From the NCBI RefSeq assembly GCF_001434475.1, contig NZ_AZGF01000006.1, positions 1-64,000 on the forward strand: 64,000 nt of DNA. Reading direction: 5' to 3'. Below, piece by piece: positions 20,431 through 54,739 of this stretch (positions within the stretch are counted from its first letter, which is position 1; the number at the start of each line of letters is the position of its first letter). Both the position numbers and the translations under genes were made by a program. The notes under the pieces were generated by a model. The model saw nothing but the letters and a program-made list of their open reading frames with translations, had not been told where the DNA came from and searched no databases. The stretch is from Paucilactobacillus suebicus DSM 5007 = KCTC 3549. Its GTDB lineage: Bacteria; Bacillota; Bacilli; Lactobacillales; Lactobacillaceae.

Positions 20431-21498
20431 ATGATTTCAATTTTGGACTATAAATCACTAGCCATTTCTCTTAACACAATCAGTGGTGTACCAGTTAGGC
20501 TGTGCTCTCTCCACCTCGAACCGTTGTATGAGAGTCCAGACGCCAAACAAACCGTCCCTGGCTTTCACACATTACCGTTGGATCCAGGAGATTGTTGTCG
20601 AGCACAAGACGGCTCAGGAATATACTTAGCCGTGGGTATTTGGCACGAAGATTTATTGGGTTATCTAATCGCCGGACCCTATCAGCAACTGAGCGATGCG
20701 CTTCCCCGAATCATGATTAATTTGGGTAAAACTGGTCCCGTTGAGATTCATCTTCACGACCAACAGGCATATATTCCTCAAATTGATACAAGTGATGAGA
20801 TGACCGAAGAAGAAGCCGGTGAAGCCAGCCAAGTGCTTAGTATTTATGTGGCTCAAAATCAACTCATGGATGCCATTGCTAACGGTGATCAAAGCCAGTT
20901 AACCCAGATAGTTAATTCAACGATTCAAAATATGCATCCATTTCTTAATCGAATCCCTAGTCGGGAACTACGAGCTGCTAAGAATATCATTTTTGTGTAC
21001 AATACCCTTTGCAGACTTGCGGCAGAACGAGGATCGGCTAGTAAATTGCTGATTGATAAGTTGTCATCAAAATATGCACTTCAAATTGAAAAGCTGGCAT
21101 CAATTGATGAAGCAATTAAACTAATTAACGAAATGCCGTTTCGCTACTGTGACCTGGTCATTGCGAAAAGAAATAAACAATACAATATGCGTGTCGCTGC
21201 TGCCATTGAATATATTATGTTGAATTTTCAAGAAGAATTGCAGCTAACAGATATTGCTCAAGCAGTACACACCAGTCCCACTTACCTCTCGCACCGCTTC
21301 AAAAAAGACACCGGTGAAACATTATTTTCATTCATCAACCACTACCGCATTAAGGTGGCCCAAGCTAAGTTGCGCGATGGTGATTTTACAATTTCAGAAA
21401 TCGCAATTTCATCGGGGTTCAATAACGTCACTTACTTTAATCGGATTTTTAAAAAATATACCGGCACATCGCCACGGAAATATGCGCGTTTAAACTAA
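20431..21498 (+). CDS. AraC-family regulator with PocR-like sensor domain
   Basis: The open frame begins at 20296, but its first 45 codons are hydrophobic and overlap the promoter region. GGAG about 10 nt before the ATG at 20431 marks the better start (355 residues). The N-terminal half resembles a PocR ligand-binding domain, including a Cys pair (PLDPGDCCRAQDG) near residues 55-67. The C-terminus is the AraC double helix-turn-helix (about 255-352, DIAQAVHTSPTYLSHRFKK and ISSGFNNVTYFNRIFKKYTG). It is divergent from uidA and probably activates the glucuronide operon. Confidence 0.82.
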   Translation: MISILDYKSLAISLNTISGVPVRLCSLHLEPLYESPDAKQTVPGFHTLPLDPGDCCRAQDGSGIYLAVGIWHEDLLGYLIAGPYQQLSDALPRIMINLGKTGPVEIHLHDQQAYIPQIDTSDEMTEEEAGEASQVLSIYVAQNQLMDAIANGDQSQLTQIVNSTIQNMHPFLNRIPSRELRAAKNIIFVYNTLCRLAAERGSASKLLIDKLSSKYALQIEKLASIDEAIKLINEMPFRYCDLVIAKRNKQYNMRVAAAIEYIMLNFQEELQLTDIAQAVHTSPTYLSHRFKKDTGETLFSFINHYRIKVAQAKLRDGDFTISEIAISSGFNNVTYFNRIFKKYTGTSPRKYARLN

Positions 21499-21623
21499 AA
21501 AGTGCAACAAATTACGATTTGCTTCCAGAATATAAGGTATTCAAGGTTAAAATCACGAATTTGGATTTTGACCTTGAATACCTTATATGGCCGGGAGCAG
21601 TCACTTGTTGCACGCTTAGACTA
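21499..21623 (+). repeat. palindromic 3'-UTR element E2
   Basis: It begins at the base after the stop codon of the AraC gene, with AAAGTGCAACAAA, and ends with TTGTTGCACGCTTAGACTA. Nested stems are GTGCAACAA/TTGTTGCAC (outer), TTGCTTCC with GGAGCAG (middle) and ATATAAGGTATTCAAGG with CCTTGAATACCTTATAT (inner). It has the same architecture as E5 but largely different stem sequence. No T-run follows. Confidence 0.75.
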
Positions 21624-45985: not shown

Positions 45986-46094
45986 TAGTCGAAAACTTGC
46001 TTTGCTACCGACACATAAAGCCTCCAAAACTAAGGTCCTATAATTCACAGGATTTTAGTCTTGGAGGCTTTATGTGTTAAAGATCAATCACCTT
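45986..46094 (-). repeat. palindromic 3'-UTR element E4
   Basis: In the sense direction it follows the stop codon of the SDR gene at once (TAA AAGGTGATTG). The core is ACACATAAAGCCTCCAA with TTGGAGGCTTTATGTGT and an inner imperfect stem. It closes with GCAAGTTTTCGACTA, a degenerate GCACGTTTAGACTA box. It is the most decayed copy. Confidence 0.6.
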
Positions 46095-46919
46095 TTATTT
46101 ATCTAGTTTATTGATTGCGTAAGTCATAACACCCTTAAATAGGTGCTGATGAACTCGCGCAATGTGACCGACAAGGTGATCGCCAATAGAATGGTAATAA
46201 CGATATTTCGGCTTTGGGTCAGTGGCTGCTTTATAAAAGACTTCTGCCAAATCATCGGATGTTGCGTTTGAGCTGTTCCCCATGCGAGTAAATAACCTGG
46301 TTGTGTTATCAACTATCTTGGCATACGGCGAATCCTCTTTCAGATTCTTTTTGGCATTTGCCATGGCAATCTCCATCCAGGACGATTGGGTGCCACCTGG
46401 TTCAACAATGACTGATCGAATACCAAACTGACTTACTTCAGTATCCAACGTATCAGACCAAACATTCAAAGCATGCTTAGTTACGTAATACCAACCGCCC
46501 AGGGGTGAATACATTTCACCACCAATTGATGAAATATTAACGATGCGTCCAGCCTGTTGACTACGCATTGTTGGCAGGACTAATTTAGTTATCTCAGCTG
46601 CACCAAATAAGTTGGTATCAACCTGTTTGTGTGCATTTTCCATACTAACTTCTTCAAGTGGTCCGTATTCACCATAACCGGCATTATTAATTAACACATC
46701 AATACCGTTAGCATCTTCTAGTGCGTCGTGTGTAAATTTTTTAATTGACTCACTGCTAGTAACGTCCAATGACATCGCATGAATTGTGTCACCCGTTGGA
46801 ATTTTTTCTACCCGCCGTGCACCGGCATACACTTCCCAACCACGTTCGGCAAATAATTCAGTTGCTGCATAACCCATACCGCTTGATGCACCAGTGATAA
46901 ATACTACTCTTCTAGCCAT
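46095..46919 (-). CDS. SDR-family oxidoreductase (classical)
   Basis: ATG 46919 has GGGGCGG upstream and gives a proper N-terminus (274 residues), whereas the frame opens at 46952. Rossmann motif TGASSGMG (about 8-15), NNAG (about 82-85), Ser-Tyr-Lys in NISSIGGE and YYVTKHALN. Such enzymes use NAD(P)H to reduce carbonyls. The TetR gene about 130 bp upstream in the same direction may control it. The substrate is unknown. Confidence 0.87.
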   Translation of the reverse strand: MARRVVFITGASSGMGYAATELFAERGWEVYAGARRVEKIPTGDTIHAMSLDVTSSESIKKFTHDALEDANGIDVLINNAGYGEYGPLEEVSMENAHKQVDTNLFGAAEITKLVLPTMRSQQAGRIVNISSIGGEMYSPLGGWYYVTKHALNVWSDTLDTEVSQFGIRSVIVEPGGTQSSWMEIAMANAKKNLKEDSPYAKIVDNTTRLFTRMGNSSNATSDDLAEVFYKAATDPKPKYRYYHSIGDHLVGHIARVHQHLFKGVMTYAINKLDK

Positions 46920-52853: not shown

Positions 52854-52970
52854 TGGGCATCCTCCTTTTTACTTTTGGTTATGATTACCTGATGATAAAA
52901 ATAGAGGTGATTTTCACCTTTGGATTGGTGGAAAAGACCTCTTGGTTTTGTTTTTTTAATACAGGATTGT

Positions 52971-53099
52971 TGAAACGTGCTGCAATAGCCCTGAGGCCCA
53001 TGGATAGTGACCTTTTAACCATCAATCGCAAAGACCACGATCAATGATTAAAAGCCCACTATCCACCAGCCTCAACCCGGGCTTTTCCGCACTCTATTT
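52971..53099 (-). repeat. palindromic element E6 (tandem unit 1)
   Basis: It has closing box GCACGTTTCAACAA, opening box ATAGAGTGCGG, and stems AGCCC/GGGCT, GGATAGTG/CACTATCC, CTTTTAA/TTAAAAG and GATNGATT-type. The unit is followed, without spacer, by E7 at 53099. Confidence 0.8.
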
Positions 53100-53225
53100 G
53101 AAACGTGCTGCTTGAGCCCAGATCACTCCGCTTAACACAATAAATCAAATTATTCCAAAATCGGGAATAATTAGATTTATCATGTTAATGCTCATGATCT
53201 AACCGGGCTCTTCCGCACTCTATTT
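53099..53225 (-). repeat. palindromic element E7 (tandem unit 2)
   Basis: Same opening and closing boxes as E6. Stems GAGCCC/GGGCTC, GATCA/TGATC, TTAACA/TGTTAA, ATAAAT/ATTTAT and ATTATTCC/GGAATAAT are separated by symmetric internal loops. The stem sequences are entirely different from E6 and E8. Confidence 0.8.
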
Positions 53226-53353
53226 GAAACATGCTCCACCAAGCAGGCATCCATGATATAACGGAAAAAATAATCAATCATTCAAAGTACGAACGCTTAA
53301 TCATTTTTCCCGTTATATCAAAATGCCTAAGCGCTTGGTTCCGCACTCTATTT
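53225..53353 (-). repeat. palindromic element E8 (tandem unit 3)
   Basis: It begins directly after the dnaB stop codon (TAG AAATAGAGTGCGGAACC) and has stems CCAAGC/GCTTGG, GGCAT/ATGCC and TGATATAACGG/CCGTTATATCA. It closes with GAGCATGTTTCA, where the box is degenerate. This is the copy nearest to dnaB. Confidence 0.8.
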
Positions 53354-54739
53354 CTACTGATCCGGCACATAAGCAATCGATGAAAACTTGTTATATGACT
53401 TCACAAATAATAACTTCACCGTACCACGCGGACCCGATCTGTTCTTTTCAATAATGACTTCAACTTCGCCGACATTTTCATCCTCATTATCTCGTGGATC
53501 TGACGGGTTATCTTCATTATCATTATCTCGTTCGTAATAATCATCACGATACAGAAACGCAACGATATCGGCATCTTGTTCAATTGAACCTGATTCACGA
53601 ATATCTGATAATACCGGTCGCTTGTCCTGACGTTGTTCCACGCCACGTGATAATTGTGACAGTGCAATGACAGGTACACCTAACTCCTTGGCTAACTTTT
53701 TTAACTGACGCGAAATATCAGAAACTTCTTGTTGGCGGTTTTCGTGGTTCGTGCCTTCAATCAATTGCAGGTAATCAACTAAAATTAAGCCTAAATTACC
53801 TTTTTCTTTAGCCAATCGACGACATTTAGCCCGAATTTCCGCAATCTTAATGCCGGCAGTGTCATCAATATAGATACTAGTCTTAGACAAGCTACCCATC
53901 GCAACAACTAATTTATTCCATTCGTCTTCATCCAATTGACCAGTCCGCAAGTGATTGGCATCAATACCACCCTCTGCACACAACATCCGGTTAACCAACG
54001 ACTCCGCACTCATTTCCAAACTAAACAGAGCCACCGTCTTATCAGTCTTGGTACCAACATTTTGCGCAATGTTTAACGCAAACGCGGTTTTCCCCACGGC
54101 CGGGCGAGCAGCAATAATGACCAATTCATCAGAATGTAACCCAGTCGTCATCTTATCTAATTCAGGATAGCCAGTCGATAAACCAGTCACAGTTGATTCC
54201 TGCTGTGATAACCGGTCAATTTCTTCGAAGGTGCCCTTTAAGACGTCCTTAATATCCTTGAACCCTTCCTGATTTTGCGACTCGGAAACGTTCATTATGG
54301 ACCGCTCAGCGTCATCCAGCAGGTCGGTAACCTCTTCATCACCTTGGTAACTCTTGGTAACAATGTCAGTTGCCGTCTTAATTAGACGCCGCGTAATTGC
54401 CTTTTCACGCACAATTTTAGCGTAGTATGCCACGTTAGCGGCAGTTGGCACGGCCTTAGCAAGCTCAACAATGTAAGTCATGCCGCCAATGTCGTCCATT
54501 TGGTTATCTTTTTGTAGTTCTTCACTCATCGTTAACGGATCAATCGGTTGATCACGGTCGTTAATGGCGATCATCTTTTCAAAGATAATCTGATGAGCAC
54601 GCCGGTAAAAATCATCCGGCGTTATATATTCCATCGACTCCACCAACGCATCGCCAGACAAAAAGATGGCCCCTAAGACCGCCTTTTCGGCTTCGATGTT
54701 TTGAGGTGGTGTCTGATCACTTAAGACATCATTATTCAT
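53354..54739 (-). CDS. dnaB: replicative DNA helicase
   Basis: 461 residues, without an intein. N-terminal helical domain (1-110), linker helix, then RecA-type domain (about 180-461) with Walker A ARPAVGKTAF (about 211-220), Walker B LILVDYLQLI and the DNA-binding loop region with SQLSRGVEQR. It unwinds DNA at the replication fork as a hexamer. It is close to rplI in the same operon (27 bp). Its 3' UTR is the E8-E6 array. Confidence 0.95.
   Translation of the reverse strand: MNNDVLSDQTPPQNIEAEKAVLGAIFLSGDALVESMEYITPDDFYRRAHQIIFEKMIAINDRDQPIDPLTMSEELQKDNQMDDIGGMTYIVELAKAVPTAANVAYYAKIVREKAITRRLIKTATDIVTKSYQGDEEVTDLLDDAERSIMNVSESQNQEGFKDIKDVLKGTFEEIDRLSQQESTVTGLSTGYPELDKMTTGLHSDELVIIAARPAVGKTAFALNIAQNVGTKTDKTVALFSLEMSAESLVNRMLCAEGGIDANHLRTGQLDEDEWNKLVVAMGSLSKTSIYIDDTAGIKIAEIRAKCRRLAKEKGNLGLILVDYLQLIEGTNHENRQQEVSDISRQLKKLAKELGVPVIALSQLSRGVEQRQDKRPVLSDIRESGSIEQDADIVAFLYRDDYYERDNDNEDNPSDPRDNEDENVGEVEVIIEKNRSGPRGTVKLLFVKSYNKFSSIAYVPDQ

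Follow-up and report, generated by a model that had tools for sequence, protein, structure and literature searches.

The three palindromic units that lie behind the replicative helicase gene dnaB of Paucilactobacillus suebicus are probably three separate copies of a mobile repeat of the REP/MITE kind, hairpins of about 120 nt which sit at the 3' ends of genes and fold on the mRNA strand. This reading is directly supported by the size and spread of the family, the maintenance of pairing in stems of free sequence, a bias towards G.U pairs, the position of the units at stop codons, the absence of the array from sister genomes and its mixture of subfamilies. Two features are of specialist interest, namely the tight anchoring at stop codons and a structure kept on the mRNA strand; the anchoring and the strand-biased G.U pairs are features beyond the earlier note on this DNA. 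The array and its surroundings are laid out as follows in the window, i.e. the whole stretch of 64,000 nucleotides that was analysed.

53354..54739, minus strand: dnaB, replicative helicase (ORF; Pfam DnaB_C 1.3e-110, DnaB 5.6e-36), with the array behind its stop codon
53225..53352, minus strand: unit E8, the first after the dnaB stop (box match, fold, covariance model)
53213..53234, minus strand: E8/E7 junction, closing box GCATGTTTCA running into opening box AATAGAGTGCGG
53099..53224, minus strand: unit E7 (box match, fold, covariance model)
53087..53108, minus strand: E7/E6 junction, closing box GCACGTTTCA running into opening box AATAGAGTGCGG
52971..53098, minus strand: unit E6 (box match, fold, covariance model)
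52905..52919, minus strand: terminator-like hairpin with a T tract, 3' of the array (weak: 1 found versus 0.7 expected by chance)

The three units, of 126-128 nt, follow one another head to tail on the minus strand, the first of them 2 nt past the dnaB stop codon. On that strand their opening boxes AATAGAGTGCGG start at 53352, 53224 and 53098, and their closing boxes, of the form GCAYGTTTCA, end at 53225, 53099 and 52971. The earlier note had described them as contiguous at intervals of 127-128 bp; the head-to-tail order without spacers stands, and the spacing measures 128 and 126 nt. The junctions are GCATGTTTCAAATAGAGTGCGG for E8/E7 (53213-53234) and GCACGTTTCAAATAGAGTGCGG for E7/E6 (53087-53108), in agreement with the note except for one base in E8/E7. 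Folded singly, E8, E7 and E6 reach -60.5, -52.6 and -71.4 kcal/mol (z -10.0, -8.6 and -10.8, respectively), none of 200 shuffles per unit matching that stability, and the whole array folded in one piece again yields three hairpins, side by side. The box words alone are weak evidence, with 8 matches each in the window when mismatches are allowed versus 5.0 and 3.7 expected; the exact word AATAGAGTGCGG occurs in the window only at the three array positions. The case is carried by structure and by the family. The terminator-like hairpin downstream is perhaps, as a weak candidate, the terminator of dnaB.

The anatomy of the unit combines fixed ends with a variable interior. Very little variation is seen in the boxes AGAGTGCGG ... 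GCACGTTTC, in a GNNT bulge on one side of the stem and in a UAA/UUA step, the left consensus being aaa.tAGAGTG and the right one CACGTTTca.cta, and the distance from opening to closing box is 117-128 nt in 93 of the 96 units measured. The feet pair over GTGC/GCAC only. A starting alignment of 13 units (A1) gave the covariance model used for the searches, and a cross-genus alignment (A4; 46 rows fitted to the model, two of them the opposite strand of another row) shows AGAGTGCG at one foot and GCACGTTT at the other as nearly fixed, then a C-G pair and the one-sided GNNT bulge, the UAA/UUA step within the stem, and an apical loop frequently with UUUG. In the remaining stem the sequence is free and the pairing is kept: 94.0% of the A4 cells are paired, two-sided changes occur in 36 of 41 pairs, and the covariation score is 0.81, versus 0.20 when shuffled and 0.09-0.16 with partners slid. 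The unfitted A1 contains two-sided changes in 30 of its 41 predicted pairs. No T run follows the right box and a terminator scan found no terminator-like site inside the array; given a right consensus that lacks a T run, the unit was rejected as an intrinsic terminator.

The family to which these units belong is large. At least 148 model matches are present in this genome, at least 141 of them with E < 1e-9; the 150 candidates scored here gave 148 matches, which makes this count a minimum, and the seven matches with E above 1e-9 were dropped from the analyses of position, identity and strand. The seven Paucilactobacillus genomes hold at least 147, 136, 91, 60, 9, 18 and 110 matches, with up to 150 candidates scored in each. 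Across Lactobacillaceae 157 of 301 genomes, from 23 of 40 genera, have a match, and at the level of the order 46 of 295 genomes do, 27 of them outside Lactobacillaceae; these two surveys, with 11 candidates per genome and strict filters, report presence and not copy number. A search of 20 named genomes gave 54 matches in P. nenjiangensis, 60 in Levilactobacillus humaensis, 25 in Periweissella ghanensis and one in L. caccae, and none in Leuconostoc fallax or in 8 of 9 Limosilactobacillus-type genomes, including Lactobacillus sp. 0.1XD8-4. Further members occur in the window itself:

21493-21622, plus strand: intact family member, starting at a stop codon
31946-32081, minus strand: intact family member, starting at a stop codon
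47639-47768, plus strand: intact family member, not at a stop codon
1321-1434, minus strand: degenerate copy with decayed boxes
45987-46110, minus strand: degenerate copy with decayed boxes

In both degenerate copies the distal stem is still almost perfectly palindromic despite the decay of the boxes. Apart from a tRNA, nothing in the window exceeds a gathering threshold of Rfam 15; 16 sub-threshold hits fall on the array region, 11 of them to microRNA precursor models. A BLAST search with one unit and its flanks, which covers that subfamily only, gave no match among plasmids and phages. No published description of the hairpin family was recognised in a literature search that had little subscription coverage and was shallow in its screening. 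The family is widespread, of the REP/MITE kind, and undescribed in the literature searched.

The strand on which the units fold can be read from their imperfect pairs. The 5' arm was aligned to the reverse complement of the 3' arm without an energy model, in the 139 units that remain when 2 of the 141 lacking sequence are set aside. On the sense strand these contain 5537 Watson-Crick pairs, 480 G.U, 52 A.C and 241 other mismatches. Equal numbers of G.U and A.C are expected where neither strand is preferred, so the excess of G.U indicates that Lactobacillaceae maintain the pairing on the strand which is the mRNA strand of the upstream gene. The 42 cross-genus units have 95 G.U versus 17 A.C, and 23 units from other families have 23 versus 15, a difference that is not significant (p 0.26). 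Pairing on the sense strand fits an RNA and is compatible also with a folded DNA of that same strand; strand-biased mutation may contribute to the excess of G.U.

The position of the units is equally distinctive. The 141 copies were grouped by strand into 122 arrays, of which 105 are single, 15 double and 2 triple, with opposite-strand neighbours (5 within 500 bp) counted apart; 113 arrays are usable, the other 9 being without flanks. ORFs were called by a simple script, and distance was taken from the stop codon to AGAGTG. Upstream of 93 of the 113 arrays lies an ORF of 100 aa or more in the same orientation, and in 30 of these 93 the box's own TAG is the stop codon (position -1). The distance is -1 to +8 in 67 arrays and -24 to +18 in 85 of the 93; none lies at 19 to 100, seven lie further away and one lies at -73. 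With this last array left out, random placement in the same gaps would put 9.7 of 92 arrays at up to +8, versus the 67 seen, and 16.9 at or below +18, versus 85, neither count being reached in any of 20000 simulations. Where the upstream ORF has at least 150 aa, 76 of 82 arrays lie at -24 to +18. Between genes that run in the same direction, 33 units are co-oriented with the pair and 11 are not (p 0.0013).

Some of the further observations count against such anchoring. The box contains stop codons, and frames which run into it therefore end there anyway; once the 46 arrays that have their stop within the box are set aside, 37 of the 46 others are at 0 to +8, 4.5 being expected and 0 of 20000 simulations reaching that number. 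Moreover, 28 of the 113 arrays have no co-oriented ORF of 100 aa or longer within -30 to +18; before some of these lie shorter ORFs, sequence like that of a terminator or a further unit, and before others nothing recognised. Of 61 rows from other genera, which include five repeats of an element and exclude 8 of 69 loci (3 short, 5 with no readable box), 35 sit at a stop codon, and outside Lactobacillaceae 9 of 23 units, second units included, are this close behind a stop. Among the upstream genes, 20 have a tblastn hit in the stretches from congeners, 11 of them at 60% identity or more. The ends of these 11 were compared by eye: in 8, a point in favour of the preferred reading, the end of the protein agrees with that of its orthologues to within one residue, and in 3, a further point against anchoring, it is longer or differently ended (C34:34373, C56:79721 and C56:80039), the protein tail at C56:80039 being read from the unit itself.

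The sister genomes lack the dnaB array. The dnaB gene is 91% identical to that of P. vaccinostercus, and in the congeners it is followed by the same transporter gene (an MFS member by Pfam here, and recognised by eye elsewhere). Comparison of this 3' region across sister species, which the earlier note had proposed as a check, found no model match behind dnaB in any of the six congeners; the short stretch that follows the gene in congener G006 may be a dead remnant. The array's interiors had also been described as unlike one another, and they are so: adjacent units have an identity of 0.61-0.62, versus a median of 0.57 and a 95th percentile of 0.70 over all pairs of the 139 copies. The best relative of E8 is C56:88179-88312 (identity 0.86) and that of E7 is C56:87924-88055 (0.81), while E6 has no relative above 0.70 among the 139 copies. 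A second triple array, C56:87924-88312, holds these closest relatives of E7 and E8 in changed order. The dnaB units are no closer to one another than random copies, and the array was therefore assembled from different subfamilies.

Between insertion at the border of another element and very fast compensated change, the two explanations offered before for fixed boundaries with renewed interiors, both find support. The addition of one unit at another's border agrees with the absence of the array from the six congeners and with the reordered relatives of E8 and E7. Compensated change is seen in three congeners at one orthologous locus, before a gene that starts with a Walker-type GTPase motif, where G001, G002 and G006 have 2, 1 and 2 units. 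The base of the stem is conserved there, and in G006 both arms of its distal part are different; from G001 to G002, 40 of 50 pairs are unchanged, 3 have two-sided changes and stay paired, 3 have one-sided changes and 4 are broken. The upstream frame, which appears to enter the unit at this locus, may help to keep the stem base constant. In the congeners, copies that seem degraded or internally deleted were seen by eye at some of the stop codons that carry units in this genome. Site-specific insertion may underlie this turnover. Against it, the sites compared yielded no clean empty site or target duplication, and no empty site was close enough to show the duplication expected of a MITE of a DDE transposon. 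In the genome pair G281/G301, which is 78-84% identical over long blocks, one orthologous site contained remnants and no clean empty site. In the G281 and G301 orthologue of unit L095:1501-1632 the base is kept, the distal stem differs and the loop appears, by eye, as the reverse complement.

Mobility of the units is suggested by these differences between species and by the shuffled subfamilies. Copies may insert where a coding region ends or at a resident copy's border, and tandem duplication would contribute too. Within the mRNA the hairpin could act as a REP-like 3'-UTR structure near the terminating ribosome, altering decay or termination; its function, if it has one at all, would be that of a 3'-UTR hairpin, by analogy with REPs. 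The sites are not conserved between species, and a benefit to the host is therefore unproven. A search for the mover found no mobilising gene. An RVT_1 reverse transcriptase domain occurs once in this genome (C42:12360-12800) and in none of the six congeners, including G001 with at least 136 copies; a reverse transcriptase, missing from 6 of the 7 genomes of the genus, is unsupported as mover. Of the 42 strict left-box hits in the stretches fetched, six lie outside units; judged by eye on the next 70 nt, two of the six are copies that have been truncated or have lost internal sequence, and none looks like the start of a longer, gene-bearing element with the same boxes. A somewhat unlikely variant is a mobile element which targets the end of translation, or of the coding region as such, with a folded sense-strand RNA (or DNA) being recognised. 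Such an element would dock at stops or behind a resident copy, often lending its TAG, and its mover would be neither a Y1 transposase nor a reverse transcriptase.

The units might instead be a non-mobile regulatory RNA of the host, a 3'-UTR stabiliser or terminator that arose and was kept by selection. Pairing on the sense strand, the position at gene ends and, at an orthologous site of three congeners, intact hairpins whose changes are compensated are all in its favour. Its presence per gene, however, is not conserved, as none is found behind dnaB in the six congeners, and its subfamilies are common to unrelated sites; a terminator role is opposed by the lack of a T run after the right box, and a weak terminator-like site lies downstream of the dnaB array. 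We consider such an RNA unlikely.

More doubtful is an element of the IS200/IS605 type, moved as single-strand DNA (as in REP-RAYT or PATE) by a Y1 transposase that acts on the folded top strand. The hairpin with its one-sided bulge and asymmetric outer boxes resembles such elements, as do the single folding strand, the many copies and the TAG at the left end, found also in GTAG REPs. The units, however, measure about 120 nt and not 20-40, and no Y1 transposase (PF01797) is present in this genome or in 5 of its 6 congeners. Among 301 Lactobacillaceae genomes, a PF01797 match occurs in 53 of the 157 that bear the element and in 40 of the 144 that are free of it (p 0.32, no association), so that a Y1 transposase is unsupported as the mover.

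A simple tandem duplication whose interiors have diverged with age is very improbable for the dnaB array. The process itself seems to happen, since 7 of the 18 adjacent pairs measured (of 19) are alike at 0.73-0.98, the other 11 lying within the range of random pairs (0.57-0.67), and these seven may be tandem duplicates or neighbours of the same subfamily. E8 and E7, however, are nearer to another array (0.86 and 0.81) than to each other (0.61), and that array has its units in a different order. Least credible is palindrome-specific mutation by template switching, in which one arm is copied onto the other and stem changes match without selection: it would account for the differences among orthologous units on both arms of the distal stem and for the inverted loop of G281/G301, but it is blind to the folding strand and so disfavoured as sole cause by a G.U to A.C ratio of about 9:1, and the one-sided bulge survives.

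For the preferred reading, copies of a REP/MITE-like mobile hairpin, REPs are the nearest precedent. In E. coli, REPs no more than 15 nt from a stop codon reportedly hinder the terminating ribosome (Liang, Rudd and Deutscher 2015), and by analogy a similar effect on the ribosome may occur here. In REP-rich genomes most GTAG REPs, which are 20-40 bp long, are described as lying within 20 bp of 3' ends and often as supplying the ORF's TAG stop codon (PMC3733652, available text). Like GTAG REPs and REPINs, the present units are high-copy intergenic palindromes that adjoin 3' ends, with a box TAG used as stop in 30 of 93 arrays and 85 of 93 placed at -24 to +18. They differ in their length of about 120 nt and in being without the GTAG tag; this genome has no Y1 transposase of the RAYT kind, and the same-strand head-to-tail arrays are a further difference.

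Other structured repeats are more distant. RUP, NEMIS/Correia, ERIC and BOX are elements of about 100-150 bp whose terminal inverted repeats match and whose interior is conserved, whereas the feet of the present units pair over GTGC/GCAC only and the interior is free in sequence. The EFAR repeat, reportedly described by Venditti et al. in 2007 as palindromic and mostly of about 170 bp, is described as two stem-loops inserted into stem-loop targets. The attC sites of integrons are structured single-strand sites behind stops, with a free interior, one-sided extrahelical bases, an arrangement in arrays and the core GTTRRRY / RYYYAAC. The units share with them the position behind stops, the free interior, the one-sided bulge and the arrays, but GTTTCRR does not fit GTTRRRY and no cassettes lie between units, and attC was rejected in view of the closing consensus CACGTTTca and the opening AGAGTG. 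In the available text of one review, the hairpin MITEs RUP, NEMIS/Correia, ERIC and BOX are dispersed, often beside coding sequences, transcribed and folding as RNA, and EFAR of Enterococcus faecalis is counted among bacterial MITEs (PMC3733652). The available part of a stem-loop survey lists Efa-1 of E. faecalis, an intergenic family of 163 bp and 65 members, and for Lactobacillus johnsonii one stem-loop family, inside coding regions (PMC2267715). Mobile/repeat sequence candidates (MRSC) are structured motifs with many copies per genome, the same category as the present family, but MRSC-65-2 has UYCCGG repeats, and the string 'lactobacill' is absent from the main text of that survey (PMC11109978, available text).

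If these hairpins are what they appear to be, a single lactic acid bacterium would have more than 100 genes ending in a long RNA hairpin without a name in Rfam. The family would offer a clean case for the old question of whether REPs are inserted at stops or survive only there, as well as for their effect on the terminating ribosome and the mRNA, and the copy-rich genomes without a RAYT-like enzyme should make the mover findable.

Some further contexts of units were noted. A tRNA-like 3' end before the unit of stretch L285 was not confirmed by aragorn. Units C7:15104-15233 and C7:17787-17916 have nearly the same left context, TCCGCGGTGCCACCTTATTTT, which, read on the opposite strand, resembles a T-box leader motif. 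In three convergent gene pairs (C56:79721-80172, C56:87924-88539 and C56:93385-93809) each gene has its own unit at its own stop, on opposite strands. In stretches L041, L042 and L043 (at about 1501) the upstream gene apparently reads through the opening box and stops at the TAG of the bulge, and part of the stem may be coding there.
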